DNA of 64,000 bases from Diphasiastrum complanatum (lineage: Eukaryota; Streptophyta; Lycopodiopsida; Lycopodiales; Lycopodiaceae), in assembly GCA_029204225.1 (NCBI GenBank), contig CM055097.1, positions 3,814,620 to 3,878,619 on the forward strand, read 5' to 3'. Within the stretch, counting starts at the first letter, position 1; each line of letters starts with the position of its first letter. The notes beneath the pieces are model-generated. The model saw only the letters and a program-made list of their open reading frames with translations, ran no database searches and had not been told where the DNA came from. Shown one piece after another: positions 12,841 through 46,325 of this stretch. A program made the position numbers and the translations under genes.

Positions 12841-12984
12841 GAGGAGAGGACAAAACAAAAATAGTCAACACTACATCAAGATTGAAAGTATATGTGAATG
12901 CAGCTCCCATGAAAGCTTGAAAAAATGGATAGATTGTTTTTACAAATACCTTTTCACGATCGACGATGATCAAAGGATGAGCTG

Positions 12985-14905
12985 GAAAATGGGATTTTGG
13001 GAGGCCTGGATTGCACGGCTGCTACTGTTGCCACAACTGCTGCAGCCAATGACATCTTCCTACTGCTTCTAACTTGCAATTGAAAATAAATAACTTGCAG
13101 GCGTAGTTGAAGGAAGATTTAGATGTCAACTCTGGAACGTCAGCATAGGTGTGTCCATTCCAGAAGCCACTGCTTCAATATTTCGTGGTTGCATTTCACA
13201 AACACACGATTTCAGATGTCTGAAACATCTGATTGGAGAAATGACTCTTAGCTGGATCAGGAAGGGATTTGGATGAGATTAGATTTGTTTCCACATCAAA
13301 GTTCATGCCTGGCACACAACTATCTGTGGGGTGATCAAAGCTTTGCCATATTGCTCTCCCTGTTATGTGGGCGAGAATAAGATTCTCGCTTTCTTCCATC
13401 AGCATTGAGGTGATGTTCATTCCACTTGTACCACTCATCCAGACAATTGTTTGATCAAGATTAGAGATGAATAAGTTGCCATCTCTGGATAATCTAAAAA
13501 ATGCACCATCCTTGGCGAGCTTGTTTTTGTTAGCCACCCAAACATGTGCAGTGATCGGAATTTTGAAATAAGATATTCCCAAATAATTTCGATGGCACTT
13601 GCTCTGAAGCAAAACCAGAATCCACCAGAATCCAGCAATACATTTCCAGCCACCGCCAGAACCAGCAAACTACAGACGTTGCCACTTTCATGGATCATTG
13701 ATGCAGGTATTAGTTATATTTTTAAGGAAATAGTCTCAAGAAAACATCATCATGGATTATCTATATTGGATCTAAGAAGTTATTTTTTTACCTACTAATC
13801 TGCACTCTTAAAGTCTACAGCTTTGTGCTCTTATTGTCTACATATATACACTGATAATAGACAGTGTGGCTGCACGAAGTCCTATCACTTCAAACAAACA
13901 GTGACAACCTCAGAATGCTGCAAACCGAGGAGAGGACTTGTTTTTGCGCTCTAATTGTCTACATATATGTGCTCTTGAGAGGATCTGTTTTTGTGCTCTT
14001 ATTGTCTGCATATATGCGCTCTTGATGATGAACATCATGGTTGCATAAAGTACCTTCACTTCGAACACTTCAAACAAACAGTGAAGGCCTCACAACTCTG
14101 CAAACCAACGAGAGGATGTTTTGATCACAAAATCAAAAGCCAAGAAATGAGAGTAAAAGCAAGCAGCAGATGGAATCCCTCGTAAACGTGACCCCTGATC
14201 CACGAGGCTGACATGCACAACTTCCACGTATTAAATCATTATTTCTTATTCTCCAAATAAAACCAATATAAGTTTGAAACATGGTTCGTTTTGCTCTCAA
14301 AAAGGGCATAACACAGTTGTAGGGTAAAATTGTAAAGATGAAATGGTCGTGGGATTGGAAATTTTTTTATACTTACCTGTGCAAATGATTTCTTTATCAT
14401 CTTAACATTGTTGCATATGCTTCTCTACTGATGCTAAGAAAATTACATGCCCTTTAAACCAATGTAGTGTCCAATATTTTTCCAACTTCATTCATAATGC
14501 TATCAATAACTGAAGCCTTAATCTTTTTCATTTTGTTATTGTTTAATATTAATTTCATAGATTTAGAAGCTAAAATAGTATCTAGTGAGTTTCCAATGGA
14601 AATCTCGGTCTTCAGCAACCAATGTTGATCTGCATTGCAAATATAATGTTCATAAAAAAGTCAGTAGAGATTAGGACACTCATAGTATTTACGGTAGCAT
14701 AATAACCTAAACTGTGAGTGGAAATTAATAAATAACAAAACTAGTAATTATGATTGAATCAAAAAGTTCAACCAATATTAAACCAAATAAGTTATAACTT
14801 ACTTGAATGCATGAATTCTTCTTTTTCGACAACCTCCTCTGGATGATAGATCACATATATCCTTGGTAACCAGTCTTTTCCTCGTGTTGTTTTTTACCTT
14901 TCTGT
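12985..14905. repeat. Segmental duplication block 1, left part (partner 28586-31440)
   Basis: From AAATGGGATTTTGGGAGGC onwards the sequence is collinear with 28586-31440, apart from the 928-bp insertion in the partner. It carries the lectin-kinase pseudogene and exons of an unidentified gene. The left breakpoint is sharp in both copies: different sequences abut it. Confidence 0.8.
13196..13700 (-). pseudogene. G-type lectin S-receptor-like kinase, B-lectin fragment, copy 1
   Basis: The minus strand reads HVWVANKNKLAKDGAFFRLS, then RDGNLFISN, IVWMSGTSG, ESENLIL, GRAIWQSFDHPTDSCVPGM: the bulb-lectin (B_lectin) hallmarks WVANRxxP, DGNLVL, VWSSNTS, GNLVL and WQSFDHPTDTLLPGM. An upstream piece (13698-13600) is in another frame. 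No kinase domain, S-locus or PAN domain follows, so only the extracellular lectin part was captured. The normal family are plasma-membrane receptor kinases. Confidence 0.75.
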
Positions 14906-15317: not shown

Positions 15318-15593
15318 TTTGAAAATTAGACTTTAACTGTTGTTAAGCACCCATGACGTTTGATGTGACTAAAATAAGGTAGATTCATTTTCATGGAAAG
15401 TAGTGTGGGAAGATGCATAAAGAAGTTAGAAAATAAAATTTTAATTACTTTATAGTTATTTCTCTCTCTCCTACATGGCATTTCTTATAGGGACCTCTTT
15501 GGGCCCATATTTTCTCTAATGTGAGTCACTTCCACTTGCTTACCCTTCTCATCATATGTAAGCGTAGATGGCTTTTGTCTTTCCCTTGAGGAT
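15318..15593. other. Unassigned junction sequence
   Basis: About 275 bases between the unidentified exons and the inverted Copia A segment. It has no match elsewhere in the window and no coding signal. Confidence 0.4.
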
Positions 15594-17880: not shown

Positions 17881-18265
17881 TGAAATACACTCTTGAAAAG
17901 TCCAGCAACTCCAAACACAAGAGATCCAATTAGAAATAGGATTTCTACAAAAGTACAAAAAATTGAATCATTCACTTTCTATATGCAAATGCTACAAAGT
18001 TAATATAGGTTTTTGAAGAGTGCAATAAGACCTATTCAATGCAATTAAAGTCTCCGCATTCCACCAAGTATGGAGTGACATCGGCCTACTTAAAGTATTT
18101 TGCCCTATATTGAGTTTTGATCTACAAAAAATCAATTCTACACTTGAAAAATGCTTGATTTTTTAGTAGAAATCAATTTAGCTTGCTCTAGAATTGGTAA
18201 CTCCTCCAAATCCTTTGCTAAATCTGGATACTCCATCAATAACCCGCACCAAATCTCCGATACCA
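17881..18265 (-). mobile_element. Copia A 5' leader with primer binding site, copy 1
   Basis: Collinear with 33109-33493 (minus orientation). The primer binding site at 18254-18265 is the reverse complement of TGGTATCGGAGA, a two-base variant of TGGTATCAGAGC, complementary to the 3' end of initiator methionine tRNA. Confidence 0.7.
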
Positions 18266-18552
18266 TGTGAAGAAAATCAAATCACTAAGATCCAATTTGC
18301 CTCTTGCACAATTAACAATGTAGACATCTAGCATCTACTTGCATAAAAGCTATAAACTCGATAAGAACTTGACCAAATAGCATATAAATGATAAAATGTT
18401 GTTTTGTCCATACAATGGCTGTACCATACCACCTTTCAAACGTGTGTATCCAATACACCACCGAAAATAGCATTCTACACACAAGAATTTAAGATATCAA
18501 CAAGACAATGCACATATGAGTATAGAAATCCAAAGAGATCACTTTCATAAGC

Positions 18553-18596
<44 letters not shown>

Positions 18597-18893
18597 CTCT
18601 TCCCACGCTTGTACACTATATATAACAAGTCCTTGACCTATTTGTATGTGCTTGTTAGAAAGTTCTAGATCTATTCTACCAATGGACTAGATTCAATGCA
18701 TCTAAATATTCAAATTTGAATTGGTTCAAACTCGACCTAAATACATTTCCCACACTTTTCAAAAGTGGTCATTCAAATAAACTTAGGCCTAAACAACTTT
18801 AAAAAGTTTATCTCTAAATCTAAAATGCATATTATTGGCCAAAATTGCCAATTGAACTAAACATGACTCAATTAAACTAGTTGATATTTCTCA
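18266..18893 (-). mobile_element. Copia A LTR, copy 1
   Basis: On the minus strand the LTR starts TGAGAAATATCAACTAG and ends TTTTCTTCACA directly against the primer binding site. Length 628. It holds a GA microsatellite (about 18557-18590) and a TATATATAG-type box near 18613. Its upstream edge cuts the gag of Copia B. Confidence 0.75.
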
Positions 18894-19480
18894 CATGCTC
18901 CACCTCTTCTCATCTCTTCTTGAAGCAATATTGAAATCAACTTTGACAATCTCATATTAGTTTGTGTAGTCACAAACATAGTCTGATGCTCATAAGTTTT
19001 AGGCAAGCTTGATAACATCGCCATAAATGCATCTTCATTTTCCACAATAGATCCTATAGAGGCCATCTTCTCAGAAGAGCCTTAAAGTCATTAATATTTT
19101 CTAACATACTAGTGGTTTCATTCATCATGAATGAGAAACAAACTTTTCTCAAAAATAATTTGGAGGTGACATCTTTATTTTTATATTGGTTAGTGAGAGA
19201 ATTCCAAGCTTCTTTTGAAGACTTGGCCAAACTAATGTGGAAGATCAATGAATCTTTCAGATTGAATGCTATGAAGCCTTTCCATCTCTTTGCTTCCATT
19301 TAGCAATGCCAAACAATATCAACTATGGGCATAAGCTTAGTCCCATTCACCACTACCCATAGACTCATTGCTAATAACATAATCCTCAACTTAAATCTCC
19401 ACATATGGAGATTACCTCCATCTAAATTCTCTACAATAGTTGAACTTGATTCCATAATTCTAAAATCGATATACACATAA
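18894..19480 (-). pseudogene. Copia family B gag, copy 1
   Basis: The minus strand begins MESSSTIVENLDGGNLHMWR, then FKLRIMLLA, SLAKSSKEAWNSLTNQYKN, SMLENINDFKALL and AFMAMLSSLPKTYEH, the Copia gag (UBN2) pattern. A stop near 19300 and a frameshift near 19075 break it. The sequence is cut at 18893 by the Copia A LTR, at the same base as in copy 2. Confidence 0.75.
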
Positions 19481-19512
19481 CAACTAAGAATGAAACTGAA
19501 CATCGATATCAA

Positions 19513-20427
19513 ATCGACTCTAGAAATCTGTCACTTCAAAAAATGCATACAAACAATTTAATTATAAATTAAGTGTGCTACAATGATCAATCTCGATGGA
19601 TTTGCACACATACAGAACCTACGGTCCAGTATATACTACCTTTTCTCTGCCATAAAATGAGTGTGCTACAATAATCTCAATTGACTTGCACACGCCATAT
19701 TTTTTCTCTACATTTTTTAGCATCTATATATACAACTTTAAGTACTAATCAAAAGAAACTTGAGTAACCTAGCATTAATTCAGTTTACTATAATCGACAG
19801 GCATTGATTGTCTAATATGATTCTGTCATGAAGAATGATCATGAAAATCGAAATTTGTTATTTTGATCATGACAGTCAAATTTCGATCTTGGGTCGAATT
19901 GAACAGAATTAATGTAGGTGTTTTGGTATCAATTCAAGTTCGATATCGAGCCGACCAAAGCTTATTTTCGACCCAAGGCTAATTTTAATCCAAAGCCTAT
20001 TTTGACCCAAAGTCGATTTGGACCCTATTTTTTTTATCTTCACTCGCTACTCTGCAAACTATCAAAATTTTAAAGTATTTCTGAGATTTGTCCTATGTGC
20101 ATAATTTGTGAGTAATTCTATAGTGTCTCAAAAATTGTCCAAAAACAAAGAACATGTACATTCGAAGAGGGACTGTACAACACTAACCAAATTCCAACAT
20201 ATCTTATGGCAAACTCAAGCAAAATCTCAATAGTCCGCAAAACCAAAAATACTAGTAAAAGGCCAAAGTCACTAAGGATACTTAGAATGGAAATAAAAAA
20301 ATGCAAAAGAAAAGCTGTGTAAAATTTTTTAACAAATCTTTCAAATGGCCTTCATCATTTCACTTTTCAATTGAAATGAATATGGCCTTAAGTACATAGG
20401 ACAACTTTACAAAACTAAGGCACCCTT
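19513..20427 (-). mobile_element. Copia B LTR, copy 1 (internally deleted)
   Basis: Collinear with the Copia B LTR at 34796-35939, but about 370 bases next to the primer binding site are missing between ACTTCAAAA and AATGCATACAAAC. It retains the phrase GCTACAATGATCAATCTC and a TATATATAC box at about 19726. It ends six bases short of the LTR terminus at the join to Copia A integrase. Confidence 0.7.
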
Positions 20428-21201
20428 TATAGAATGGAGTGGCCGAGAGGAAGAATAGAATCCTTTGTGAATGTGCCAAGGCAATGAGACTACATGCAAA
20501 TTTTCCTAAGTCTTTTTGGGGGGAATCTTTAGCATGTGCTAACTATCTTTGTAACTGGACAAGTGCCTACTTGGATGGTAAGACTCCTTTTGAGGTCCTT
20601 CATGGTAGAAGGCCGAGTGTCAAGCATTGTAGGATCTTCAGTTGTACTTGTTTTGTCAACATCACTCTTGATGATAGAACTAAAGAAGATCCTTCATTGA
20701 AAGAAAGGTGTGTTTGTTGGCTATAGTGAAGTAAGCAAGGCTTACAAGGTTTACATTGCTTCAACAAGAAAATTTCTCATTTCTAGAGATGTCATATTTG
20801 AAGAAGGCAATGTACCAAAGAAAGTTGGTGTTGATGAAACTAACAATCTTCATGTTATTTCTCCTAACTTTCTTGATGGTGATGGATCTATGGATGATGA
20901 TGGTGGAGATGCCTCTCCAAGTCAAGTTCTAAGAATATTCTCAAGGCAAAGTGAAAAGCCAACAAGACTTACATATGATTGGAAGGGTATGCAAGTTGTG
21001 GAAGGTACAAACACGGCTTTACTCACATGTTTTGGTACATCTTCTTGTGTAGATAATGTTATGCAAATGGATGGTTGCCTTCATGAAATGGATGTCATTT
21101 ATGGTTCTGGAAAACAGGTTTTGGTCAGTGGTTTTGATTGTCAAAAGGAAGATCAAGAGGTTGATCTTAATGTGCTTCATCAACACCTTGGAAATTGGTA
21201 A
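20428..21201 (+). pseudogene. Copia A-like integrase C-terminus, copy 3
   Basis: The frame reads GVAERKNRILCECAKAMRLH, PKSFWGESLACANYLCN, KTPFEVLHGRRPSVKHCRIF, then after a frameshift near 20710 GYSEVSKAYKVYIAS, RKFLISRDVIFEEGNV. This is the Copia integrase C-terminal region, related to 17480-17880 but reaching further. It is plus strand and runs into minus-strand gag at about 21300. Confidence 0.8.
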
Positions 21202-22265
21202 TTTGAAGCTAGTCAAGAGCATCAAAGAAGGATCAAATGGCCAAGTCACTAAGGATCTATTTCTACAGGCTATTGAAGACTCAAGTAAAGGCAAAAGGCT
21301 TTTTCAAAGCTTCCCAAGACTCACTTGATGAAGTACACTTACCAACTTCCTTGAGAAGTTCATTCGTAACATTCATCTTGATCACATGTAGAGCTTTCTT
21401 TTCCATCTTATCATACCTCAATTGTTATTGAGGTGCCAAAGGTCTTTCCTTCACACCTACAAAAATGTCCATTAGATCATTCATCTCAAGGAGAGACTCC
21501 ATTCTCACCTTCCAAGTAGAATAATTTGTTGAGATAAGCCTATCATTGCCTTCCAACATGAAGCCACTTGATGTTGCCATGTTACAATCTTCTCTTTCAA
21601 CCTATTACAACGCACAAAGCACTCCCTTGAATGTCAACAAATTTACTCAAGAAGAAATCACAAAGATATGGAACCTCCCAAATCTCTTTCTTGCACCAAA
21701 CCTAGCAAATCAACATATAACATGGAAGGTACTTTATCAACAAATGATCAACCTACAATCTTATGAGATTTTGTACTTTCTATGATTGAAATACACTCTT
21801 GAAAAGTCCAGAGACTCCAAACACAAGAGATCCAATTAGAAATAGGATTTCTACAAAAGTACAAAAAATTGAATCTTTTACTTTCTATATGCAAATGCTA
21901 CAAAGTTAATATAGATTCTTGAAGAGTGCAATAAAACCTATTCAATGCAATTAAAGTCTCCACATTCCACCAAGTATGGAGTGACATCGGCCTACTTCAA
22001 GTATTTTGCCCTATATTGAGTTTTGATCTACAAAAAATCAATTCTACACTTGAAAAATGCTTGATTTTTGAGTAGAAATCAATCTAGCTTGCCCTAGAAT
22101 TGGTAACTCCTCCAAATCCTTTGCTAAATCTGGCTACTCCTTCAATAACCGACACCAAAGCTCTGATACCATGTGAAGAAAGCATCTAAAAATTCAAATT
22201 TGAATTGGTTCAAACTCGAGCTAACTACTTTTCCCACACTTTTCAAAAGTGGTAATTCAAATAAA
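21202..22265 (-). pseudogene. Copia A gag start, 5' leader, PBS and LTR stub, copy 3
   Basis: From about 21300 the minus strand holds the gag N-terminus (ATG near 21580) in reverse, then the leader (to 22159), the primer binding site GCTCTGATACCA at 22160-22171 (perfect complement of the tRNA-iMet PBS), and about 90 bases of LTR after an internal deletion. The opposite orientation to the integrase piece at 20428 makes a head-to-head join. Confidence 0.7.
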
Positions 22266-23240
22266 CTTACGCGTCTTTACCAAGGTATGCAAACTGTGTA
22301 TGATATAAGGCTCATAAATCTTATAGCAAAGGTGGAATGTTGTTCAATAAGGTTGAATGTGTGTTATAGGTATGACAAAATGCTTGCATCTAAAGGGTAT
22401 GCTTTACAGATTATGGGTAGATTTATGATGTTTCAGAAATTGATTTCGACCTATATTTTCTGAATTACTTGGTTTTGCAGGCATGCCTTAAAACTCCTTG
22501 AATTTCGTACATGATAGTAGTGCTAAAGTTTCCTCGTTCTCTTTTGTTAGCATTAGCAAGAAGCTGCAAAAAAACGATATGTACTAATTCTAATTTCATG
22601 TGCAATGTGATATTTATGTTGGGATCTATTTTATACATACAATAATTTAGAATTTAAATGGAAAACCAATACTATAGAAATGATTATATCTATGGATTCA
22701 TTTTTTTGTATTGCCATATCGATACAAGCATTATTCCCTTGTAGATGTTAATGTCCAAAATTTATCTTCTTTGAAAAAATGTGTATGTTTCAAAATGCAA
22801 ATAATGATTTTTAATAGGAATTCAAAATATACCAACAAAAAAAATAGACACCCGAAATGTAAAATGAATGAGTTTTTCATATGATGTATATTAAAATGAT
22901 CAAGTGATTGTTGAATACAATTAAAAAAAAAATTGTTCCACATAATACAGGTATAAAAAGGAGTGTAATAAATATTGGAAACGAAGATTTGTTGGAATGC
23001 GAAATGCAATGTGCAATTGCAAATTTCGATCTTTAAAGTTCAAATTTTATTCAGGAGATAGGCATAATCTCCTAGTTTATATATCTTGGAAGGAAATTGC
23101 AACTTCCATGACAACTAACTAAACTGACAACTCACACATATTTTCAACAAATTTCTTTTTCCAATTTTTAATCACCTTAGACTAAAAGCATTTAAAAACA
23201 ATCATAAAAAATGCAGGGAATCAATGTTAGGAAAAACAAA
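22266..23240 (+). repeat. Uninterrupted version of the segments at 11570-11942 and 12255-12840
   Basis: 22265-22850 is the reverse complement of 12255-12840, and 22865-23240 is a direct copy of 11570-11942. Here the two parts are adjacent, so this is probably the older arrangement. No gene was recognised. Confidence 0.65.
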
Positions 23241-24600
23241 TAAATTCATGTTCAAGCTCTTCTATCAGTCGACGTAGACCACCTATTGATCCATCACATG
23301 TATGTATATTGATTTATGTCATAATTTTTATTTGTAATAGTGATGTAATCCGATTTGCTCTTTGGATATAGTATATTGCTCTTTGGAAAGCCAAGACACC
23401 ATTCCATCACAAATGAAGGTTGAAAATGCACTAAATGTACAAAGACTATTTTGTCAATTTTTGTCACATGTTACAATACGTCACATCACGTGGAGGTACG
23501 ATAATTTCCCTAGAATTCATAATTCCAATCAAATGTCATTGTAAGAATAAATTTGCAAGAAAAATTATACACTCATATTCAAATAACAAATAAAGTGCAA
23601 TTGATGTCAATATCAATAACAATATATACCTGTTGTTGCGATCATGAGATGAATCGCTATCTGATGATGATGACATCGTCGATGACATATACACACTGTA
23701 GCCAACTACTCTATACCACATCATAAGTAATCATTATGAGACCGTATGTTCTGAACAAATATAATAAAATTTGTTAAAGACATGCCAACATCTAATCCAT
23801 GTATATTCTACTTATGCTTAATGTAAATCTAATATTCTAGTAACATTGCTATCAGGAAAATTGCTTGGGTGGGGCAACACATGACGAGCAATCAAAATGA
23901 GGTTCATACTGAAAAATGTTAGACATCAGTAGATAGTGCGTGCAAGCCTATCTCAACTAATTTAAAGGCCACATAGCAGTCAATGTTCGAAGCTCTCAGT
24001 TTAAACTCTTGTCTAAGATGAGTGATGATCTCAAGGTAAATCTCTTTGGATTGGCCTAGTGTGCCATGGTATCTCATGACGAGCAATATGCATTCGCCCT
24101 TTCTATCTATGGTTGCTTTGTATGCAAGAAATCACACCATTGATCAACATCTTTATTACAATGCTAAATGATATTTCAACTAATTACTATGATTTCATAT
24201 AAGGTTATATAGGTCACACACCAACAATTAAAAATATTTATCATATAGGTCACATATCACTAAGGTCCTCAATATAACATAAATGCTTTTGATCATGAAT
24301 CTAAATGACCCCAATAAAATGGCATTTCCGCGAGCATTCTTGCTCCTCTTCTTTTGCTTTCAAGTTTTATAGGTTTTCTATTCTAGTGTTTAGTGCCCTT
24401 GCTTGCTATTGCTCTTCTAAGCTCTATAGATCTTGCTTGCTTGCTTTTGGTTGCTCTTCGTTGCTAGTGATCTTGCTCTTGCTTTTGCTTGCTCTATTGA
24501 TCTTCTTTGTTCTTGTTTACTATTAGTCTATTGCTTACTCTTCTAATCTAAAAGTCTTCAATACTCGTTCACTCCCATTCTCCACTACTTTCTAACTTTT
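23241..24600. other. No gene recognised; upstream region of the second accessory gene
   Basis: No homology or motif was recognised. Pyrimidine-rich GCTTGCT-type sequence (24340-24530) precedes the gene and may be its leader. Confidence 0.4.
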
Positions 24601-24619
24601 AAAGTTTTTCTTTGATACA

Positions 24620-25739
24620 ATGTCTTCGAGTGGTAGGTCAAGTGAAAGGTCAAGTGGGAGACCATCTAGGAGAAGAGCTCGTGAGGAGCCCGAAGAATAT
24701 AATCAAGAGTGGTTTGAGAATCTATCTCCTCAACAAAGAGATAGAATAAAAAATCTTGTGTTATCTTCTTCGGGTGAATCATCCGAGAGAAGAGCTTCCG
24801 AAGATGCCCTTTCCCAAGAATCATGTAGTGTGTATTATGATCTTAATCCACGTGGTGGAGTTATAAAAAATATGCGTGGCAATGTAGTTCATGCCCGTTT
24901 GCGTGATTTAGTTGCTCTATATTTTGGTAAAGATTACATGATCGATTGGTCCTCCCAATCGCTTGAAGACAAAAATGAAATAATAGAGACTTTGTATTCT
25001 GAATTCCCTCAATCCAATGCTTTTAGTAGGACTTGGGCCTTGAATACAATGTGCCTTTGGATTCGAAACAAAAGGCAATTGATGAGAAGAGCCGTGAGGA
25101 ATCCCAAGAATCCCACAAAGCCTGGATGGTGTTCCAAAAGGGATTGGAGGAAGGTGAAAGAGGAATTGTTGCAAAACAATCCCCAAAATATGAACAACAA
25201 CGTAGGGCCGCCGCCGAAAAGCTTTTAAAACATGGCCAAAGTCACTTGGGATCAGGAGGAAGGGGCAATCTAGAGGCCCAATTTGTAAGTGCAATATTTT
25301 TTAATATGATTCTATTTTTGTAGTGAGATTGTTAATGTTTTTTTATTGCTAAACTATGTTTTTTTGTTGAATGTAGCTTAGTGATTTTGGAAGACACATG
25401 ACCGTCGCGGATTACAAGCAAGGTTACGATCATGGATATGCCGGCCTTAAGGCTTTTATGGAATCCCATGGATTGTTTCCAATCTTAAAATCTTAACCTT
25501 TATTGTTTTGTGATTGTTTATTATGTGGTTTACAAGTAAGTTTAATCTCAATTTAATTAAATCTTTGATTCTATTTTGTAGAGAGGCTCTACAACTTCAA
25601 GTGTTCGTGATGTGGAAGAAAATGTGGAAGATAACGTGGAAGAGTACGTGAATGAAAGCGAAGGGGAGTTTGAAGATGTGGACACCAACGTACACCTACA
25701 AGATGAAGGAGGCGAGGAGGGAAGAAGTGATGATGAGTA
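24620..25739 (+). pseudogene. Accessory protein gene of a probable DNA transposon, copy 2 (one frameshift)
   Basis: The ATG at 24620 gives a Ser/Arg/Glu-rich start, then QEWFENLSPQQRDRIKNLVL, YYDLNPRGGVIKNMRGNVV, LVALYFG, ALNTMCLWIRNKRQLMRRAV and GWCSKRDWRKVKEELLQNNP. A one-base indel near 25185 shifts to KYEQQRRAAAEKLLKHGQSH then LGSGGRGNLEAQF, the frame supported by copy 1. An intron 25285-25376 (GTAAGT...TGTAG) leads to exon 2 (LSDFGRHMTVADYKQGYDHG...) with a stop at 25494. A later segment (25583-25739), after a TTTTGTAG acceptor, encodes an acidic tail ending DDE-stop and may be exon 3. The function is probably DNA binding for transposition (inference from the palindromes beside both copies). 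Confidence 0.55.
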
Positions 25740-26490
25740 GAGGTTCTTAAATTAAATGTAAGGCCTTGTAGAAGGCAATGTAGGAAGAGAGAATTTATTC
25801 TCTCTTCAATGTACTTGTTTTTTAATCAATCAATATAATGTTTTGGCATCACATCATTCTTGCAAAATTTTTGAATGCATATATTTTTAATCCATGAATG
25901 CAAATGTATAGTCTATTGAATGCACATCTATTGATTGCAAATGTATCTATTGATGTATTCAATGCAATGTATAGTGCACATCTATGCAATGCAAATGTAT
26001 CCATTGATGAATTCAATGCAATGTATCTATTTTAGCACATGATTTGCATGCTAGAATGCACAATAAAAAGTAATGGAAAGTAATGGAAATAGATAACACA
26101 TTAAGTTATCAACTAAATATCAAATGAATCAAAATAAATGTGAATTTACCTTTACTATTGTATCTCCATTGTTTTGCAATCTTTGCTTTTCCTTTTGCAT
26201 GCACTTGATCTTTGAATCTTTTGCAATGAAAGCTCATTTTTCATATCCACACCTACATCACAAACAAAAAAGGTCTTAAAACTTATGATGACAAAACACA
26301 TACTATTAACATCTATCAATGAACTAAAAATCCTAAACACTATCAATCTTCTCACTCACATTTATCCTCATCTCATTCTCACTCCCATCTATACTCTCTT
26401 TTTCTCTCTCTCACACAACACAAAAATAAAAAGTCACCTCTATTTTCGGAGCGAACCACATTTTGGTTCGCGCCAAATGTTTTTTGTTTG
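25740..26490. other. Intergenic with antisense exon-like segment
   Basis: 25860-26060 has several copies of AATGCAAATGTAT/CATCTAT-type words. On the minus strand 26258-26155 reads DMKNELSLQKIQRSSACKRK, a basic stretch beginning after an AG and ending near GTAAAT; it may correspond to the antisense segments at 9618-10060. No complete gene is visible. Confidence 0.3.
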
Positions 26491-26493
26491 GAC

Positions 26494-27025
26494 AAAAAAT
26501 TTTGCGTGGATTATTCACACGTGGATAATCCATGCAAATTCTAGAAACCTTTCCGCGTGGATATAAAAAAAAATTTTATCCACACGGTATCCACAGCCTC
26601 AGCTCTCTGGATTTTGCGTGGATAAAGCAAATTTTGCGTGGATAATCCACGTGTGGATAATTATCCACACAATATCCACATAGTATCCACGCAAAAACCA
26701 AGCCTTTTTTATTCTATTTTTACTATGGCGTGGATTATCCACGTGAAATTAGAATTCCTATTTCCGGCTCCTGGTGTCGGAGGTTTGCCCGGCTGCCGGT
26801 AGTCGGACTTGGCATGGATAATCCACGCATTTTGAATTTCACAACATCCGGCCGATCTGTTGCCGAAAAAGACATTTGCGTGTAACATCCACACGTGGAT
26901 AATCCACGCGCTCGTATCCACGCGTATATCCACGCCAATCCATGGATATATCCACACGAATTTGTTTTTGCCCGCGCATCCTCCTTTGTATTGTGTGTGG
27001 ATATTTGCGTGGATATTTGCTATAT
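26494..27025. repeat. Palindrome array GTGGATA/TATCCAC
   Basis: GCGTGGATAATCCACGC-type inverted repeats recur at least eight times. A perfect 20-bp palindrome lies at 26651-26670 (GTGTGGATAA/TTATCCACAC). Others lie at 26504-26533, 26728-26743, 26813-26829 and 26888-26910. The array lies 3' of the accessory gene just as the GCCACGCGTGGC array does in copy 1, but the word is different. Confidence 0.7.
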
Positions 27026-27032
27026 GTGTTCT

Positions 27033-27927
27033 TGTGGAAGTCCCCGACGCCAATGAGTTGCCAAGGCACCAATCTCAACCGAAGTCATCGATGACGCCGA
27101 AGTCAAGACTCGGCTGAAGTGGCCGAAATGGCCGAAGTCCCCGAAGACAACAAAGGCAACGAAGGCAAAGCAGTTCCCAAAAGTCGAAGTCCCCGAAGTG
27201 TCTGAAGTCATCGAAGTGACCGACGATGACTCAACCCTAGAGATGTGCCAAAGCCAAAAGTCAAGCCAGCCACGTCAAAGCGTGACAGTTTGAATGTCAC
27301 GGCTCAACCGTTAAGGCCTTGTAGTTTAGCAAAGTAGCAAGACATAATTAGCTAATGTTTTTACTTAAACTATTTTGTAATGCTTAGCTAATTTAGTTCT
27401 TGTAATTAGACCAAGCATGCTATATGTATTGGAGGTCGGATACATATAGAACAAGAGAAAAAGTAAGAAGCATACACAAAGCGTGTATGAGAGAAAGAGG
27501 TCGATGAATGTAGTCTTGTAGTAGCTGATGCATATTATCAAACCAATGATTTAGTGCTAGAAGTAGCTAGTTCCTGGTAAGGGAGAATACATCTCTTACC
27601 TCTGTGCGTTGATCTGGAAAATAGACAACGCTTAAAAAGGATCATTGATATATACTTGATTTTGGTAATATAGACAAGTAATAGTTCTTCCGCTCAATGT
27701 ATGCAATCTCTGAGTGTTGTGATGCTTGCTCAATTCATAAGTAGATATACTTCCATTGTCATTTAACATTATTTACTATTCATAAATTAGTATTTGATCG
27801 CGGAATGAAGCAATAGCTTCTCCAGACAGATCGGCTCCATATGAGCTCATATCAGTGAATCATGACTAGCTCCGACTTCGAAGTTCTTGAAGTTTCCGAC
27901 TTCTTAGAATTTCAGGATCCACATCAG
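27033..27927 (+). mobile_element. Copia family D 5' LTR
   Basis: A sequence starting TGTGGAAGTCCCCGACG and carrying many GAAGTC/CCGAAG words (27036-27240) runs to the primer binding site at 27928. An inverted partner lies at 10791-11575. Exact LTR ends are uncertain because no 3' LTR is present. Confidence 0.6.
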
Positions 27928-28140
27928 TGGTATCAAAGCTGCTCGGAGAACCGAAGTCGTCGAAGCCGACATCAGATTCACAACAATGGTATCAAAGCTG
28001 CTCGGAGAACCGAAGTCATCAAAGTCGACATCAGATTTACAACAGTGGTAATAGAACTACTCAGAGAACCGAAGTAATTGAAGTCGACATCAGATTCACA
28101 AAAGTGGTATTAGATCCCGGTTCGCTCCTATTAGAGCCTC
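27928..28140 (+). repeat. Four primer-binding-site copies in a 59-bp tandem repeat
   Basis: TGGTATCAAAGC at 27928, TGGTATCAAAGC at 27987, TGGTAATAGAAC at 28046 and TGGTATTAGATC at 28105 are spaced by exactly 59 bases. Each of the first three is followed by (T/A)GCTCGGAGAACCGAAGTC-like sequence. The word matches the initiator-tRNA-Met PBS (TGGTATCAGAGC) with one or more changes. Confidence 0.8.
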
Positions 28141-28152
28141 GTCACTGAGACT

Positions 28153-28586
28153 ATGGCATCCATTAGCAGCATCCAATCGAAGATTTGCACAGTACTTTAA
28201 GCAGACATGTTGAATTTCTTGGTTTGGAAGGTAAATACTTCACTCATACTCAAAGGAGAAGCACTATGTCCATGGGTTGACAGCACCAAAAGATGCCAGC
28301 CAGCACAAGCAAGGAACTTCTAGAGTGGAAGGAGAAGAATGACAAAGCATGAGCTGTCATCTCCTCTTCCATCAAAGACAGCATTACCCTTGACCTTCTA
28401 TCAATCTCCAATGCTAGAGAGATGTGGGATGCACTCACAAGCAGATTTCAGACCAAGTCACAAAATCAAATTATGCATCTAGGAGATCAACTCACCTATG
28501 TAAGATGGGATGGCAAAGATCTCACCAGCTTCATCAAAAAAATGAAGAACCTGTTCTTGTCATTACACAATGCTAGAACAAAGCAG
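28153..28586 (+). pseudogene. Copia D gag fragment
   Basis: ATG at 28153 (MASISSIQSK) is soon followed by stops, but family sequence continues: LVWKVNTSLILKGEALCPWV, then EMWDALTSRFQTKSQNQIMH, then LTSFIKKMKNLFLSL, the Copia gag UBN2 pattern. It is cut at 28586 by the segmental duplication block. Confidence 0.65.
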
Positions 28587-28865
28587 GAAATGGGATTTTG
28601 GGAGGCTTGGATTGCACGTCTGCTACTGCTGTCACAACTGCTGCAGCCAATGACATCTTCCTATTGCTTCTAACTTGCAACTGAAAATAAATAACTTGCA
28701 GACATAGTTGAAGGAAGAGTTAGATGTCAACTCTGGAACGCCAGCATAGGTGTGTCCATTCCAGAGGCCATTGCTTCAATATTTCGTGGTTGCATTCCAC
28801 AAACACATGATTTCAGATGTCTGAAACATCTGATTGGAGAAACGACTCTTAGTTGGATCAGGAAG

Positions 28866-28870
28866 GGATT
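28866..28870 (+). repeat. Target site duplication, left (GGATT)
   Basis: GGATT before the TRIM and AGATT after it (29799-29803) flank the insertion. The uninterrupted locus in block 1 reads AAGGGATTTGGATGAG, showing a single GGATT. Confidence 0.8.
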
Positions 28871-29798
28871 TGTTGCGGAATATTTAGTTGCAAGCCACAC
28901 ACAGGAAAGTGTCGTGGGCTTGAGCGCCTAGTGAAGGCCTTGAGAATTCTGAATATCCCATAAGTAACTACTTGCCTTGAAATCTCCCATATATAAGTTG
29001 CGGCTTCTCTATATCCTCTATCCCCTAGTACCAGCCCTTTTGGGGGTTAGACAGATGGCAGGTGACTAGGCGACTGGGGTTGGGATCCCTATACGCGGCT
29101 CGCGTTGGTACATGTGTGTGCGTGGCCCTGAGGCCCAAATTCTTTACATGGTATTAGAGCCAGTGGGGGTTCCTTTGCCTGTGCTTGCTTGAGTGGGGGT
29201 GTTGCGGAATGTTTAGTTGCAAGTCACGCACAGTGCTGTGGGCTTGAGCGCCTAGTGAATGCCTTGAGAATTCTGAATATCCCATAAGTAACTGCTTGCC
29301 TTGAAATCTCCCATATATAAGTTGGGGCTTCTCTATATCCACTATCCCCTGATACCAGCCCTTTTGGGGGTTAGACGGATGGCGGGTGGCTAGGCAACTG
29401 GGGTTGGGATCCCAGTACGCGGCTCGCGTGGGTACGTGTGTGTGTGTGGCCCTGAGGCCCCAATTCTTTACATGGTATCAGAGCCAGTGGGGGTTCCTTT
29501 GCCTGTGCTTGCTTGAGTGGGGGTGTTGCGGAATGTTTAGTTGCAAGCCGCGCACACGAAAGTGTCGTGGGCTTGAGAGCCTAGTGAAGGCCTTGAGAAT
29601 TCTCAATCTCCCATAAGTAATTGCTTGCCTTTAAATCTCCCATATATAACTTCGGGCTTCTCTATATCCTCTATCCCCTGGTACCAACCCTTGTGGGGGT
29701 TAGACGGATGGCGGGTGGCTAGGCGACTGGGGTTGGGATCCTTGTACGCGGCTCGCATGGGTACGTGTGTGCGTGGCCTTGAGCCCAAATTCTTTACA
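28871..29798 (+). mobile_element. Tandem TRIM retrotransposon: three LTRs, two 51-bp internal domains
   Basis: LTRs at 28871-29148 (278 bp), 29200-29472 (273) and 29524-29798 (275) each start TGTTGCGGAAT and end TTCTTTACA. The two 51-bp spacers (29149-29199, 29473-29523) start with TGGTATTAGAGCC / TGGTATCAGAGCC, the tRNA-iMet primer binding site, directly at the LTR edge, and end with GAGTGGGGG, a polypurine tract directly before the next LTR. There is no coding sequence, so mobility must have depended on another element's proteins. It splits the lectin pseudogene, and the empty site is visible in block 1. Confidence 0.9.
29149..29160 (+). promoter_or_regulatory. TRIM primer binding site 1 (second copy at 29473-29484)
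   Basis: TGGTATTAGAGC here and TGGTATCAGAGC at 29473 match the complement of the 3' end of plant initiator tRNA-Met; the second is exact. Confidence 0.85.
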
Positions 29799-30130
29799 AG
29801 ATTTGGACGAGATTAGATTTGTTTTCATATCAAAGTTCATGCTTGGCACACAAGTATCTGTGGAGTGATCTAAGCTCTGCCATATTGCTCTCCCTGTTAT
29901 GTGGGCGAGAATAAGATTCTCGCTTTCTTCCATCAGCATTGAGGTGATGTTCAATCCACTTGTACCACTCGTCCAAATAGTTGTTTGATCAAGATTAGAG
30001 ATGAATAAGTTGCCATCTCTGGATAATCTCAAAAATGCACCATCCTTGGCAGGCTTGTTTCTGTTAGCAGCCCAAACATGTGCAATGATCGGAATTTTGA
30101 AATAAGATATTTCCAAATAGTTTCAATGGC
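29799..30130 (-). pseudogene. G-type lectin S-receptor-like kinase, B-lectin fragment, copy 2 (split by TRIM)
   Basis: The minus strand reads HVWAANRNKPAKDGAFLRLS, DGNLFISN, TIWTSGTSG, ESENLIL, GRAIWQSLDHSTDTCVPSM, the same B-lectin region as at 13196-13700. The continuing part of the frame is displaced to 28586-28870 by the 928-bp TRIM. Residues WVANRNKP are nearer to the family consensus here than in copy 1, while the DHPTD motif is worse. Confidence 0.75.
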
Positions 30131-30869
30131 ACTTGCTCTGAAGCAAAACCAGAATCCAGCAATACATTTTCAGCCACCGCCAGAACCAGCAAACTACAGA
30201 CGTAGCCACTTTCATGGATCATTGATGTAGGTATTAGTTAGATTTTTAAGGAAATAGTCTCAAGAAAACATCATCATGGATTGTCTATGGATCTAAGAAG
30301 TTATTTTCTTACCTACTAATCTGTGCTCTTAATGTCTACAGCTTTGTGCTCTTATTGTCTACATATATACACTGATAATAGACAATGTGGCTGCACGAAG
30401 TCCTATCACTTCAAACAAATAGTGACGACCTCAGAACGCTACAAACCGAGGAGAGGATTTGTTTTTGCGCTCTAATTGTCTACATATATGCGCTCTTGAG
30501 AGGATCTATTTTTGTGCCCTTATTGTGTGCATATATGCGCTCTTGATGATGGACAGCATGGTTGCATGAAGTACTATCACTTTAAATACTTCAAACAAAC
30601 AGTGAAGGCCTCACAACGCTGCAAACCAACGAGAGGATGTTTTGATCACAGAATCAAAAGTTAAGAAATGAGAGTAAAAGCTAAACGTGACCCCTGATCC
30701 ACGTGGCTGACATGCACAACTTCCAAGTATTAAATCATTATTTCTTATTCTCCAAATAAAACCGATATAAGTTTGACACATGGTTTGTTTTGCTCTCAAA
30801 AAGGCCAGAACACAATCGTAGGGTAAAATTGTAAAGATGAAATGGTCGTGGGATTGGAAATTTTTTTAT

Positions 30870-31165
30870 ACTTACCTGTGCAAATGATTCCTTTATTATC
30901 TTAAACATTGTTGCATATGCTTCTCTACTAATGCTAAGAAAATCACATGCTCTTTGAACCAATGTACTGTCCAATATTTTTCCCAATATTTTTCCAACTT
31001 CATTTATAATGCTATCAGTAACTGAAGCCTTAATCTTTTCATTTTGTTATTGTCTAACATTGATTTCATAGATTTAGAAGTTAAAATAGAATATAGTGAG
31101 TTTCCAATGGAAATCTCATCAGCCAAACGGTCTTCAACAACCAATGTTGATCTGCATTGCAAATA
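30870..31165 (-). pseudogene. Unidentified exon(s), copy 2
   Basis: After a TTTGCAATGCAG acceptor the minus strand reads TLVVEDRLADEISIGN, then (with a frame change) ASVTDSIMNEVGKIL- and STLVQRACDFLSISREAYAT, ending ESFAQ at a perfect GTAAGT donor (exon end 30876). Counterpart of 14378-14640. The family is unknown. Confidence 0.35.
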
Positions 31166-31440
31166 TAATTTTCATAAAAAAGTCAGTAGAGATTAGGACA
31201 CTCATAGTATTCACAGTAGCATAATAACCTAAACTGAGAGTGGAAATTAATAAATAACAAAACTAGTAGTTATGATTGAATCAAAAAGTTCAAACAATCA
31301 TGATTAAACCAAATCAGCTATATAACTTACTTGAATGCACAAATTCTTCTTTTTCGACAACCTCCTTTGGATGATAGATCACATATATCCTTGGTAACCA
31401 GTCTTTTCCTCAAGTTGCTTTTTACCTCTCTGTTGAGCAA

Positions 31441-32878
31441 ATCCATATAAGTCCAACAATATCTACTAAAGTCATCAATTTAAGTCACAAACATCTTTGC
31501 TTTTCCAATATTCAAAGAACTAGTATAATGTACATCCAAATGTACTAAATGAAAAGGCATCTTAGATCTTCAGCTAGATCTAGAATAAGACACCTTTCTG
31601 ACTTTGACATTGAAGAAAGCTCACCAGCTTGCTTCTTTTCCTTCAAACCACCATGGTTAGAAACAGCATATCCATCAAGTTTGTAGAGCTCACCTTGTCT
31701 CTTGCCATCAAGACTCCATTCCTTTTGTCAAACAAGAATCACCAGCAAATTTCAATTTGAGCCCTTTGTCATTTATTTGACACACACTAAGCACATTCTT
31801 AGTAATGGAAGGTATGAACAAGACATTCTTCAAATGAACATTCTTGTTTGTAGATGAGAGAAAAATAGGAAAAGTAACAATGCCCTTGATAACACATTTA
31901 CCACCATTGGCCATGTTGATGACCTTACTTCTCTCTTTCATAAGGCACCAAAGAAGTAAAGTACTCTTTGTGACATTTCATATGAAAGCTTACTCCACTA
32001 TCAGTCCACCATGGATCAATATCTCCATCATTGGTTACCAAACAAGAAGACATCAAAAAAATATCATAATTTGAGTTTTGATCACCAACACCATCCTCAT
32101 CAAAAGTGAAATTGCCTTTCTTCTCATCTTGATCTCTCATTTTCTTGAAGCACTCACTAGCAAAATGTCCTTTGACTCCACAATAGAAACATTTTAGCTT
32201 AGTTCTATCTTTCCTCTTGCCAACAAAAGTAGAAGCCTCACCTTGAGCTTGCCCTTTAGACCACTTGCCTTTGATGAACATAGCTTCCTCCTCCCCAACT
32301 TGAGATGTAGAAGATGCACCTCCTCTTAATAGAGACCTAAACTCCTCATTCACCAAGATCTCTTGCAAATCCACCATACTTGGCAAATTTTTTTGAAAAG
32401 CAAAACTTTGAACAAGATTAGCATGATCATCCAACAAGCCATTAAGAACAACTTGAACAAGTTCTACTTCCTTAATGTTTTCCTCAATACATGCTAATTC
32501 ATCATTGAATGCCTTAATCCTCAAAACAAAAGCATGAGCAGTTTCATCCTTCTTTTGCATACTTTGAAAGATTTGCCTCCTATGGGTTAGTACCCTTGAT
32601 GTAGACTTAGATTGAAGCTTCTTCAAAGCTTCCAAAGACTCACTTGATGAAGTACACTTACCAACTTCCTTGAGAAGTTCATACATAACATTCATCTTGA
32701 TCACATGTAGAGCTTTCTTTTCCATCTTCTCATACCTCAATTGTTCTTGAGGTGCCAAAGGTATTTCCTTCACACCTACAAAAATGTCCATTAAATCATT
32801 CATCTCAAGGAGAGACTCCATTCTCACCTTCCAAGTAGAATAATTTGTTGAGGTGAGCCTATCGTTGCCTTCCAACAT
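31441..32878 (-). pseudogene. Copia family A gag-protease-integrase start, copy 2
   Basis: From the ATG at 32878 an open frame of 317 residues covers gag (MLEGNDRLTSTNYSTWKVRM), the zinc knuckle CFYCGVKGHFASEC and the protease motif DPWWTDSGVSFHM. It is thus better preserved than copy 1, which has ESG. Beyond 31925 frames are broken, and the sequence ends within the integrase start at about 31441, so RT, RNase H and the 3' LTR are missing. Orientation matches its LTR and leader. Confidence 0.85.
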
Positions 32879-33493
32879 GAAGCCACTTTATGTTGCCATG
32901 TTACAATCTTCTCTTTCAACCTATTACAACGCACAAAGCACTCTCTTGAATGTCAACAAACTAAATCAAGAAGAAATCACAAAGATATGGAACCTCTCAA
33001 ATCTCTTTCTTGCACCAAACCTAGCAAATCAACACATAACATGGAAGGTACTTTATCAACAAATGATCAACCTACAATCTTATGAAATTTTGTACTTTCT
33101 ATGATTGAAATACACTCTTGAAAAGTCCAGCAACTCCAAACACAAGAGATCCAATTAGAAATAGGATTTCTACAAAAGTACAAAAAATTGAATCTTTCAC
33201 TTTCTATATGCAAATGCTACAAAGTTAATATAGATTCTTGGAGAGTGCAATAAGACCTATTCAATGCAATTAAAGTCTCCACATTCCACCAAGTATGGAG
33301 TGACATGAGCCTACTTCAAGTATTTTTCCCTATATTGAGTTTTGAATCACAAAAAATCAATTCTACACTTGAGAAATGCTTGCTTTTTGAGTAGTCTAAA
33401 TCAATCTAGCTTGCTCTAGAATTGGTAAATCCTCCAAATCCTTTGCTAACTCTGGCTACTCCTTCAATAACCCGCACCAAAGCTCTGATACCA
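32879..33493 (-). mobile_element. Copia A 5' leader and primer binding site, copy 2
   Basis: A leader of about 600 bases separates gag from the PBS at 33482-33493, the exact complement of TGGTATCAGAGC. This is the intact arrangement against which copies 1 and 3 can be judged. An antisense 70-80 residue open frame in it is present in all copies but is an artefact of the leader. Confidence 0.8.
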
Positions 33494-34126
33494 TGTGAAG
33501 AAAATCAGAACTGAGATCCAATTTGCCCCTTTGATCTTTGGTTACTAAAGAAAGCAAGTCTAGCACCATTAACAATGTAGACATCTAGCATCTACTTGCA
33601 TAAAAGCTATAAACTCGATAAGAACTTGACCAAATAGCATATAAATGATAAAATGTTGTTTTTGTTCGTACAATGGTTGTACCATACCACTTTTCACACG
33701 TGTGGATCCAATACACCGCCTAAAATAGCATTCTACACACAAGAATTTAAGATATCAACAAGACAATGCACATATGAGCATAGAAACCCAAAGAGATCAC
33801 TTTCATAAGCATGAGAGAGAGAGAGAGATGCCCTCTTCCCACGCTTGTACACTACATATAGTAGGTCCTTGACCTATTTGTATGTGCTTGTTAGAAAGTT
33901 CTAGACCTATTCTACCAATAGACTAGATTCAATGCATCTAAAAATTCAAATTTGAATTGGTTCAAACTCGACCTAACTACTTTTCCCACACTTTCCAAAA
34001 GTGGTAATTCAAATAAACTTAGGCCTAAACAACTTCAAAAAGTATATCTCTAAATCTAAAATGCATATTGGCCAAAATTGCCAAGTGAACTAAGCATGAC
34101 TCAATCAAACTAGCTGATATTTCTCA
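33494..34126 (-). mobile_element. Copia A LTR, copy 2
   Basis: 633 bases; on the minus strand TGAGAAATATCAGCTAG at the start and TTTTCTTCACA at the end, abutting the PBS. It has a shorter GA tract than copy 1 (about 33812-33830). It is inserted into Copia B gag at the same base as in copy 1. Confidence 0.8.
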
Positions 34127-34695
34127 CATGCTCCACCTCTTCTCATCTCTTCTTGAAGCAATATTGAAATCAACTTTGACAATCTCAAAGTTAGTTTGTG
34201 TAGTCACAAACATAGTCCGATGCTCATAAGTTTTAGGCAAGCTTGATAACAACGCCATAAATGCATCCTGATTTTCCACACTAGATCCTATAGAGGCCAT
34301 CTTCTCAAGAAGAGCCTTAAAGTCATTAATATTTTCTAACATGCTAGTGGTTTCATTCATCATGAATGAGAAAGAATAATTTCTTAAAAATAATTTGGAG
34401 GTGACATCTTTATTTTTATAATGATTAGTGAGAGAATTCCAAGCTTCTTTTGAAGACTTGGCCAAACTAATGTGGAAGATCAATGAATATTTCAAATTCA
34501 ATGCTATTAAGCCTTTCCATCTCTTTGCTTCCATTTAGCAATGCCAAACAACATCAATGGGCATAAGCTCAGTCCCATAGATTCATTGCTAATAACATCA
34601 TCCTCAACTTAAATCTCCACATATGGAAATTACTTCCATCTAAATTCTCTACAACAGTTGAACTTGATTCTATAATTCTAAAATCGATATACATA
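34127..34695 (-). pseudogene. Copia family B gag, copy 2
   Basis: Frame 34534-34127 encodes SLAKSSKEAWNSLTNHYKNK, SMLENINDFKALLEKMASIG, AFMALLSSLPKTYEHRTM, the UBN2-type Copia gag. Codons before 34534 are shifted. It is truncated by the Copia A LTR. The primer binding site GCTCTAATACCA lies upstream at 34783-34794. Confidence 0.75.
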
Positions 34696-34795
34696 GAACG
34701 ACTAAGAATCAAACTGAACGTCGATATCAAATCGACTCTAGAAATATTTCACTTCAAAAATTTCAATGGAGGTTTGAACTCTGCTCTAATACCAT

Positions 34796-35939
34796 TGTTG
34801 AAAAAAGTCCTAATCTTCACTCTACATATCAATGTTGGAAAAAACCAGGAGATAAATGAACTAAGGATTTCCTAAGGTGCAAAAATTAAGGAATAGCAAT
34901 CCTCCTAGGATCTTAGCAATCCTATGAGGAGGATGACATATTTCACTAAGATGGATAGAGACGAATGAATTAGAGCTAACATAAATGGATGAGCAGGTAG
35001 ATTGAAAAGGGCTCATTAATGTACTTGGCAGACACCACACGTCCATACATTGCTTATGCAGTATTCAGAATGAGCCAAGATCGATTCACGAACAACATTA
35101 TAGCTTAATTGAAACTTTAACTATTGATAAAAATGCATACAAACAATTTACTCATAAATCAAGTGTGCTACAATGATCAATCTCAATGGATTTACACACA
35201 TACAAAACCTATGGTGCAGTATATACTACCTTTTCTCTGCCATAAAAGGAGTGTGCTACAATAATCTCGATTGACTTGCACACACCATATTTTTTCTCTA
35301 CAATTTTTAGCTTCTATATATACAACTTTAAGTAGAATCCAAAGAAACTTGAGTAACCTGGCATTAATTCAGTTTACTATAATCGATAGGCATTGATTGT
35401 CTGATATGATTTTGTCATGAAGAATGATCGTGAAAATTGAAATTTGTTATTTTGATCATGACAGTCAAATTTCAATCTTGGATTGAATTGAATAGAATCG
35501 ATGTAGGTGTTTTGGTATCAAGTTCGATATCGAGCCGACCAAAGCTTATTTCGACCCAAGGCTAATTTTAATCCAAAGCCTATCTTGACCCGAGGTCGAT
35601 TTGGACCCTGTTTTTTTTTATCTTCAGTCGCTACTCTGCAAACTATCAAAATTTTAGAGTATTTCTATAGATTTGTCCTATGTGCATAGTTTGTGAGTAA
35701 TTCTACATGTCTCAAAAATTGTCCAAAAACAAAGAACATGTACATTTGAAGAGTGATTGTACAACACTAACCAAATTCCAACATATCTTATCGCAAACTC
35801 AAGCAAAATCTCAATAGTCCGCAAAACCAAAAGTACTAGTAAACGGCCAAAGTCACTAAGGATACTTAGAATGGAAAAATGAATATGGCCTCAAGTACAT
35901 AGGACAACTTTACAAAAACTAAGACACCCTTTAGCAACA
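34796..35939 (-). mobile_element. Copia B 5' LTR
   Basis: On the minus strand the LTR begins TGTTGCTAAAGGGTGTC and ends TTTTTTCAACA next to the primer binding site; the ends TGTTG...CAACA are inverted. Length 1144. A TATATATAG box lies near 35315. The copy at 19513-20427 lacks about 370 bases of it. Confidence 0.7.
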
Positions 35940-42154: not shown

Positions 42155-42163
42155 CCCCCCCTT
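42155..42163 (-). promoter_or_regulatory. Copia C polypurine tract
   Basis: On the minus strand AAGGGGGGG sits directly before the 3' LTR start TGTTGGATT, the expected plus-strand primer. Confidence 0.75.
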
Positions 42164-42225
42164 AATCTGGATCCGTGAATGCCTTGATTTTCAAACTGAG
42201 CAATGCACAAAATTTGTTTTGTGCA

Positions 42226-43640: not shown

Positions 43641-43663
43641 TGATAACCATGTCTGATTCTATA

Positions 43664-44700: not shown

Positions 44701-44825
44701 CATGGTGATGGCTTGACTTAAAATGGTTTCCTAGTCAGTATACCAACTAGATAGTCTTGACAGATAGGTAACTCGACTTTTTCGCGAGGATAGTCGAGAT
44801 CAAGAACAATAGATTGTCTAGACAT

Positions 44826-46320: not shown

Positions 46321-46325
46321 TGTTG

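Follow-up and report, generated by a model that had tools for sequence, protein, structure and literature searches.

In the genome of Diphasiastrum complanatum, a family of miniature LTR retrotransposons (TRIMs) with a very short interior is repeatedly joined to foreign sequence at its primer-binding site (PBS). At 19 of the 53 loci with a PBS-reaching internal domain (spacer), foreign sequence abuts the spacer PBS in place of the family's own LTR, and the same arrangement was found at 5 of 9 further loci read upstream of LTR-PBS junctions, giving 24 in total. In 11 of these 24 chimeric loci, the TRIM LTR is in turn followed by a foreign PBS, and in three of them Copia gag lies further on. These recurrent PBS chimeras with other LTR families were unforeseen by the preliminary description of the window, the 64,000-nucleotide stretch analyzed here (contig CM055097.1, positions 3,814,620 to 3,878,619), which had singled out one tandem copy of the family.

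The three-LTR element of the window and its family

The window copy is a tandem TRIM, LTR-spacer-LTR-spacer-LTR (L-s-L-s-L), of 928 bp at 28871-29798. Its features, together with the target-site duplication (TSD) and the neighboring open reading frame, are as follows:

13265..13269, + strand: empty target site GGATT, in a paralogous block without the element
28866..28870, + strand: 5' TSD GGATT, same as the empty site
28871..29148, + strand: LTR1, 278 bp
28988..28997, + strand: TATA-like stretch in LTR1, read from the sequence
29149..29199, + strand: spacer 1 (internal domain 1), 51 bp, recurring at other loci
29149..29163, + strand: PBS of spacer 1, TGGTATTAGAGCCAG, read from the sequence, with a presumed length
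29191..29199, + strand: G-rich polypurine tract (PPT) 1, GAGTGGGGG, with 91 genomic occurrences of its PPT-LTR junction
29200..29472, + strand: LTR2, the middle LTR, 273 bp, with private changes over its entire span
29473..29523, + strand: spacer 2 (internal domain 2), 51 bp, with PBS at 29473-29487 and PPT at 29515-29523
29524..29798, + strand: LTR3, 275 bp
29703..30122, - strand: B-lectin open reading frame (Pfam B_lectin, 2.3e-17), the end of which reads into LTR3
29799..29803, + strand: 3' TSD AGATT, one mismatch to the 5' copy

Both spacers begin with a PBS (TGGTATYAGAGCCAG), which we take to be of the tRNA-iMet type, and end with a G-rich PPT; they are unlike at 1 of 51 positions, and all three LTRs have the ends TGTTG...TTTACA. 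Chance is excluded for the array because it has the highest score of the 32 rows returned by Tandem Repeats Finder (1544, period 324 bp). The element combines TG...CA direct terminal repeats, a short non-coding interior and a length under ~1 kb with a PBS beside the 5' LTR and a PPT beside the 3' LTR, both in junctions that recur genome-wide, and, as in TA-TRIMs of the L3I2 form, it has three LTRs, two internal regions and one TSD (1 mismatch). The 928-bp repeat is a genuine miniature retrotransposon with three LTRs and belongs to a type, TRIM L3I2, that is ordinary in plants. The lengths, the PBS-to-PPT layout of the spacer (with a presumed tRNA identity) and the tandem L3I2 anatomy given in the preliminary description are thus borne out. 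The TATA-like stretch of LTR1 is a putative promoter, and LTR2 and LTR3 contain a comparable stretch. A search of Rfam over 28700-30000, up to E=1, returned 0 matches, and neither a 5S rRNA nor a tRNA was found within the LTR, as would mark a Cassandra or Helenus element; a structured RNA in the window LTR, of the Cassandra type or otherwise, is rejected on this basis.

The insertion can be read directly from two paralogous blocks, 12987-14919 (element absent) and 28588-31448 (element present), in which the pairs 12987-13271/28588-28872 and 13266-14919/29800-31448 align without the element, the flanks having diverged by K2P 0.061. The empty site at GGATT and the near-perfect TSD show that the TRIM integrated later than the local duplication, upholding the earlier claim of insertion from the empty paralogous site. 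The element broke the 3' side of the B-lectin open reading frame, which in translations of the empty paralog extends just ~23 codons beyond the site. Relative to the flanks, the window LTRs carry an excess of transversions (Fisher p = 0.025; all changes, p = 0.074), a weak suggestion that they were non-identical at integration or mutate faster. The window also contains large, partly inverted paralogous blocks (10829-22867 and 22266-35877) with B-lectin and Copia gag fragments, and a Copia-like element at 41116-47476 with terminal repeats of ~1.04 kb.

The family was searched for in the source genome (1.745 Gb in 5176 contigs). The window LTR has at least 72 matches (517 first-look candidates, 40 scored); the 51-bp spacer plus five LTR bases, at exact length and with up to 3 mismatches, occurs 46 times, and LTR-PBS junctions number 269, with places for about the first 100. 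Reversed-pattern controls gave 0 for these two patterns and for the PPT-LTR junction. Reading extended to 4-6 kb at 32 of 112 planned loci, to 1 kb at 20 spacer sites and to 251 bp at 19 LTR-PBS junctions, in addition to 10 short upstream pieces and 20 earlier loci. Full annotation covered 73 loci (L001, L009-L080), reduced to 57 by removing 16 copies of the same insertion, recognized by eye from common flanks.

The family occurs in the forms L, LsL, LsLsL and LsLsLsLsL, so that the solo, two-LTR and multi-LTR copies for which a genome search had been proposed were all found. Two solo LTRs (L009 and L032) have a perfect TSD. Both outer LTR ends are present at 15 loci, 10 of which have a TSD with at most one mismatch, against a chance expectation of 0.029; none was found at L012, L017, L018, L021 and L067. 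An ordinary satellite without target duplications, one of two cases that would have spoken against the preliminary description, is ruled out by these TSDs. The other, a long relative from which the short form was derived by deletion, was likewise not found: among the loci read, L105/L097 aside, no long element, such as an autonomous helper would be, carries the TRIM LTR on both sides. In the stretch read of L105/L097 (C19:11.12 Mb), a TRIM LTR without a spacer upstream is followed by a different internal domain, and this LTR may belong to the 5' end of a longer element.

In 56 full spacers, the length was 51 bp (n=32), 52 bp (n=19) or 53 bp (n=5). The short spacer, described earlier as a feature of the window copy, is characteristic of the whole family as far as it was sampled. 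Packaging signals may, as was proposed, lie in transcribed parts of the LTR, which would involve no paradox. At one locus (L081, C4:41525118), the interior between two TRIM LTRs is just 18 bp. Inverted pieces of the TRIM LTR adjoin or lie near TRIM copies at L035, L036, L068, L099 (C16:31.175 Mb) and L027/L028.

Foreign sequence at the spacer PBS

The 57 annotated loci contain 67 spacer hits, of which 66, at the 53 loci counted above, reach the PBS and one (L059) starts inside the spacer. The family's own LTR precedes 43 of the 66 and is missing before 23; L033, L039 and L054, in which by eye the family's own LTR is present but damaged, were set aside from the latter, as was L075, an ambiguous case. 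The foreign tails end in CA in 15 of 19 cases, and in that of L080 too if a small PBS deletion is allowed; two end in TA (L046, L071) and one in AA (L079). Comparison of their last 200 bp sorts them into 11 groups by similarity. Among the 20 spacer sites, out of 46, that had been left unread (L061-L080), 16 are distinct and eight have a foreign 5' end, L075 uncounted. On the PPT side, 63 of 65 spacers lead into the family's own LTR, two into a truncated own start and none into a foreign LTR, a count that is partly conditioned by spacer and PPT-LTR probes that include LTR start bases.

Ordinary insertion of TRIMs into other elements was considered too, nesting being widespread in plant genomes. 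However, the unit starts at the PBS, not at the LTR, in 19 of the 19 foreign junctions kept, which already contradicts simple nesting and leaves it a negligible probability. Nesting is also reported in PMC1950507.

Three of the foreign groups are shown to be LTRs: X-A by its repeat family and a partner LTR in L043, X-C by two LTRs with a TSD, and X-F by a TSD and a repeat family (43 genome matches, 3 of which, beyond L045/L055, cover the full 358 bp). The X-B and X-D tails, in which ~140-153 bp are common to several loci right up to the PBS, are likely LTRs as well. The single tails of L030, L042, L044, L046, L060, L064, L071 and L079 are putative LTRs, judged by their place and ending. ARAGORN placed a tRNA-like sequence in or at the edge of X-D/X-B tails in 2 of 5 loci scanned (L080, 462-534; L068, 496-568), and X-D/X-B may represent TRIMs resembling Helenus, in which the LTRs derive from tRNA.

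X-A-like tails occur at L010, L043, L066 and L078. The plain host junction, X-A-tail|PBS-CCAAGTACAAGG without a TRIM unit, is present 4263 times at up to 3 mismatches (control 0), and a host-type junction resembling it lies inside L047. X-A is a very abundant young Copia family. A first look gave 1458 LTR candidates for it (an example element being C3:58834098-58838320), and the 40 that were scored were all at 98-100% identity.

Downstream, a second, foreign PBS directly follows the TRIM LTR at L010, L024, L030, L078, L079 and L080. Beyond it lies Copia gag at L010 (Retrotran_gag_2, 9.1e-24) and L030 (4.3e-7), and at L024 a gag match below the curated cut-off (3.6e-4) with a zf-CCHC match above it (3.2e-4). 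The second PBS of L080 opens an internal domain of 116 bp, after which come a purine tract and a further LTR-like start. A Pol_BBD match lies downstream of the TRIM LTR at L043, and L066 has a further ...CA end and PBS ~95 bp past it. At L079 (C23:22.64 Mb), the second PBS is followed by a 44-bp internal domain, a purine tract and a different LTR-like start.

The 19 LTR-PBS junctions read comprise eight with the spacer (one cut), one 18-bp form and ten with another internal domain. Upstream sequence was obtained for nine of these ten, the pieces being paired by coordinates. An X-A-like tail, identified by eye, meets the spacer PBS on C5, C6, C7:10.79 Mb and C12:38.92 Mb, and a tail like that of L046 does so at C12:0.96 Mb. 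Two C20 loci, probably related copies, have an X-A-like tail fused within the spacer, and one piece has a spacer without a PBS. These three of nine, with a switch inside the spacer or no PBS, count against pure PBS joining.

Perfect 5-bp TSDs surround four chimeras, one of them weakly supported. L045/L055 reads GAAGT, X-F LTR (358 bp), spacer, TRIM LTR, GAAGT. L061 reads AGTTT, TRIM LTR, 139 bp, PBS-spacer, TRIM LTR, AGTTT; its 139-bp piece opens with a PBS, and only the last 81 bp were matched, to the X-D tail at 85-92%. L041/L053 reads GTTCC, X-C LTR (480 bp), spacer, TRIM LTR (1-272), ~750 bp, purine tract, X-C LTR, GTTCC, its two X-C LTRs being 98% alike. L042, with AAAAC at 209 bp, is the weaker case because of its atypical LTR start. 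No convincing TSD was found at L044, L046, L060, L066 and L068.

The chimeras could descend from one chimeric Copia lineage with a spacer and LTR in its leader, the TRIM being born from that lineage or a mere fragment of it. X-A-like tails do recur, at the four loci named above and, by eye, at the four upstream pieces on C5, C6, C7 and C12, and L043 sits inside a two-LTR X-A element (LTRs 98% alike, 3.65 kb start to start). Against a single lineage, the foreign ends belong to 11 groups, the hybrid TRIM LTRs are dispersed among the free ones and show several marker haplotypes, and free L, LsL and LsLsL copies have their own TSDs; we consider this reading improbable. K2P between TRIM LTRs is 0.096 for hybrid-hybrid, 0.099 for hybrid-free and 0.100 for free-free pairs (17 hybrid and 47 free rows), and since the hybrid LTRs form no clade by distance, capture probably recurred. 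L043 and L066 have the same marker haplotype, and the X-A chimeras could in part come from one capture copied afterwards.

Origin of the tandem and chimeric elements

The comparison of the three window LTRs that had been called for gave K2P values of 0.082 (1-2), 0.093 (1-3) and 0.091 (2-3). Each LTR has private changes, and those of LTR2 are scattered over its full length; the patchwork of LTR3 and LTR1 that a late unequal crossover would leave in LTR2 was not seen in this comparison. The near-equal divergence of the three LTRs and the private changes throughout LTR2 make it probable that the unit was tandem already at or near integration. The window LTRs have the subfamily haplotype C-T-T-x-T-A-A in common, LTR3 being off at one marker, and by these comparisons the tandem appears to belong to a single subfamily and to be roughly of the insertion's age. 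Within loci generally, transversion markers agree (11 mismatches in 140 comparisons, against a shuffled mean of 0.382; 0 of 2000 shuffles as low), so mixed parentage of the LTRs is rejected as a general rule. One exception is the tandem L020 (C8:40.07 Mb), whose LTRs 2 and 3 are unlike at 4 of 7 subfamily markers, which suggests two parents.

The window copy fits both an origin in reverse transcription and an unequal crossing-over soon after a two-LTR element had inserted, the latter because its LTRs share subfamily markers, as LTRs within loci generally do. No sign of a reverse-transcription origin was found in the window sequence itself. The pattern of Sabot and Schulman, a TSD with outer LTRs highly alike, is missing there (1-3 at 0.093, not below 0.082 and 0.091), although age may have erased it.

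The window tandem may instead stem from a two-LTR TRIM whose LTRs underwent unequal crossing-over or gene conversion after insertion, with the chimeras arising separately; we rate such an origin as less likely than not. It would preserve the TSD, agrees with the subfamily markers common to the window LTRs, and is the explanation given for Wukong tandems (PMC4528315) and one of two proposals for Cassandra (PMC7215508) in the portions of those papers available. However, the near-equal pairwise K2P and the private changes throughout LTR2 would make the event nearly as old as the insertion, and hybrids between unrelated LTRs with flanking TSDs, as at L045 and L061, cannot result from crossing-over.

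Our preference, held at slightly better than even confidence, is that the tandems and the chimeras both arose by intermolecular plus-strand transfer at a common PBS within the particle of a Copia helper. We infer the transfer step itself because the switches at the PBS, the complete LTRs on both sides and the TSDs of the hybrids all fit it. In the particle, minus-strand cDNAs would be co-packaged, and plus-strand strong-stop DNA (LTR-PBS) would pair with the PBS complement of another cDNA rather than its own. The transferred strand would then copy through the spacer and LTR, and renewed copying of the tRNA 3' end would create a new PBS, making further transfer possible. With two TRIM templates, this would produce L3I2 and longer arrays; with one template from Copia or another TRIM, it would produce X-LTR|PBS-spacer-LTR or X-LTR|PBS-spacer-LTR|PBS-X-internal. 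Both of these structures are present in the source genome.

The second structure is also predicted if TRIM DNA in the form of a small circle, with one LTR and a spacer, underwent recombination at the 12-15 nt PBS with Copia DNA, either integrated or extrachromosomal. The six loci with a second PBS and five further upstream-read loci agree with this, and recombination with a circle would keep the TSD of X, as at L041. It cannot, however, give an X-LTR-spacer-TRIM LTR with its own TSD (L045/L055; L042), nor L061, and a homology of 12-15 nt is very short for DNA recombination; such an origin seems unlikely.

Intermolecular plus-strand transfer is itself weighed down by work on HIV-1. In the available text of PMC5651808, plus-strand transfer is given as generally intramolecular in HIV-1 studies, a picture that would count against our proposal; the same paper argues that the second transfer in HIV-1 can be intermolecular.

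A wider process of PBS hopping can also be envisaged, to which we give a little less than an even chance: minimal TRIM cDNAs would act as intermolecular acceptors and donors for the plus-strand strong-stop DNA of many LTR families with the same tRNA primer. Tandem TRIMs and insertions with hybrid LTRs would repeatedly result, as would Copia elements whose leader holds an additional spacer-LTR module, together with a genomic record of co-packaged RNAs. PBS joining is one possible source of both tandem and hybrid elements. The junctions suggest that in a plant the second strand transfer can take place between molecules, even those of unrelated families. This bears on how TRIMs find their helpers: in the part of PMC4717578 available, 278 of 289 TRIM subfamilies are without a larger coding relative. 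If PBS chimeras record co-packaging, the foreign LTRs would name the particles in which a TRIM travelled, in any sequenced genome.

Comparison with known systems

Published work already describes TA-TRIMs and short internal domains, as well as recombination or template switching as routes to tandems. Recurrent PBS-joined TRIM chimeras with several LTR families were not reported in the literature searched, which covered few subscription journals. Statements on PMC4717578, PMC4528315 and PMC7215508 below refer to the portions of those papers available.

In maize, L3I2 is the commonest tandem form, with 63 of 93 arrays (Gao et al. 2016, PMC4717578), and an array with two inverted TRIMs is mentioned. 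Tandem TRIMs are common by this account, and the preliminary description was in this respect overstated. The window family is set apart from these TA-TRIMs by its spacer of 51-53 bp and by the chimeras joined at the PBS to other LTR families, of which no description was found in that portion of the paper.

Wukong, a maize TRIM, has an LTR of 230 bp, an internal domain of 72 bp, a PBS and a PPT, and 8 of its 89 intact elements have three LTRs (PMC4528315). It is like the window TRIM in its short LTRs, PBS and PPT and three-LTR forms, although its spacer is longer, and its tandems are ascribed to recombination between intact elements. With internal domains of 77-80 bp in biv-TRIM and 85 bp in Helenus-1_SMo as well, the 51-bp interior had been rated too highly as a near-minimal oddity, as far as the available portions of the sources go. 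Among plants, only Selaginella has a characterized family of Helenus-like tRNA-derived TRIMs (PMC10886601). Cassandra arrays have LTRs with the internal domain as spacer, and both recombination and template switching have been proposed for them (PMC7215508); the window element is like them in array form but is without a 5S or other Rfam match.

Three-LTR complexes of Angela, Squiq and Opie, each with one flanking TSD, were ascribed to reverse transcription (Sabot and Schulman 2007, PMC1950507). That model invokes a switch between R regions and predicts chimeric LTRs. In contrast, the chimeras described here join whole LTRs of unrelated families at the PBS, which points to the second (plus-strand) transfer. 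The same paper cites a long form of Veju as apparently made by a template jump. The long form may be close to the PBS chimeras of this family. Veju itself is a wheat TRIM.
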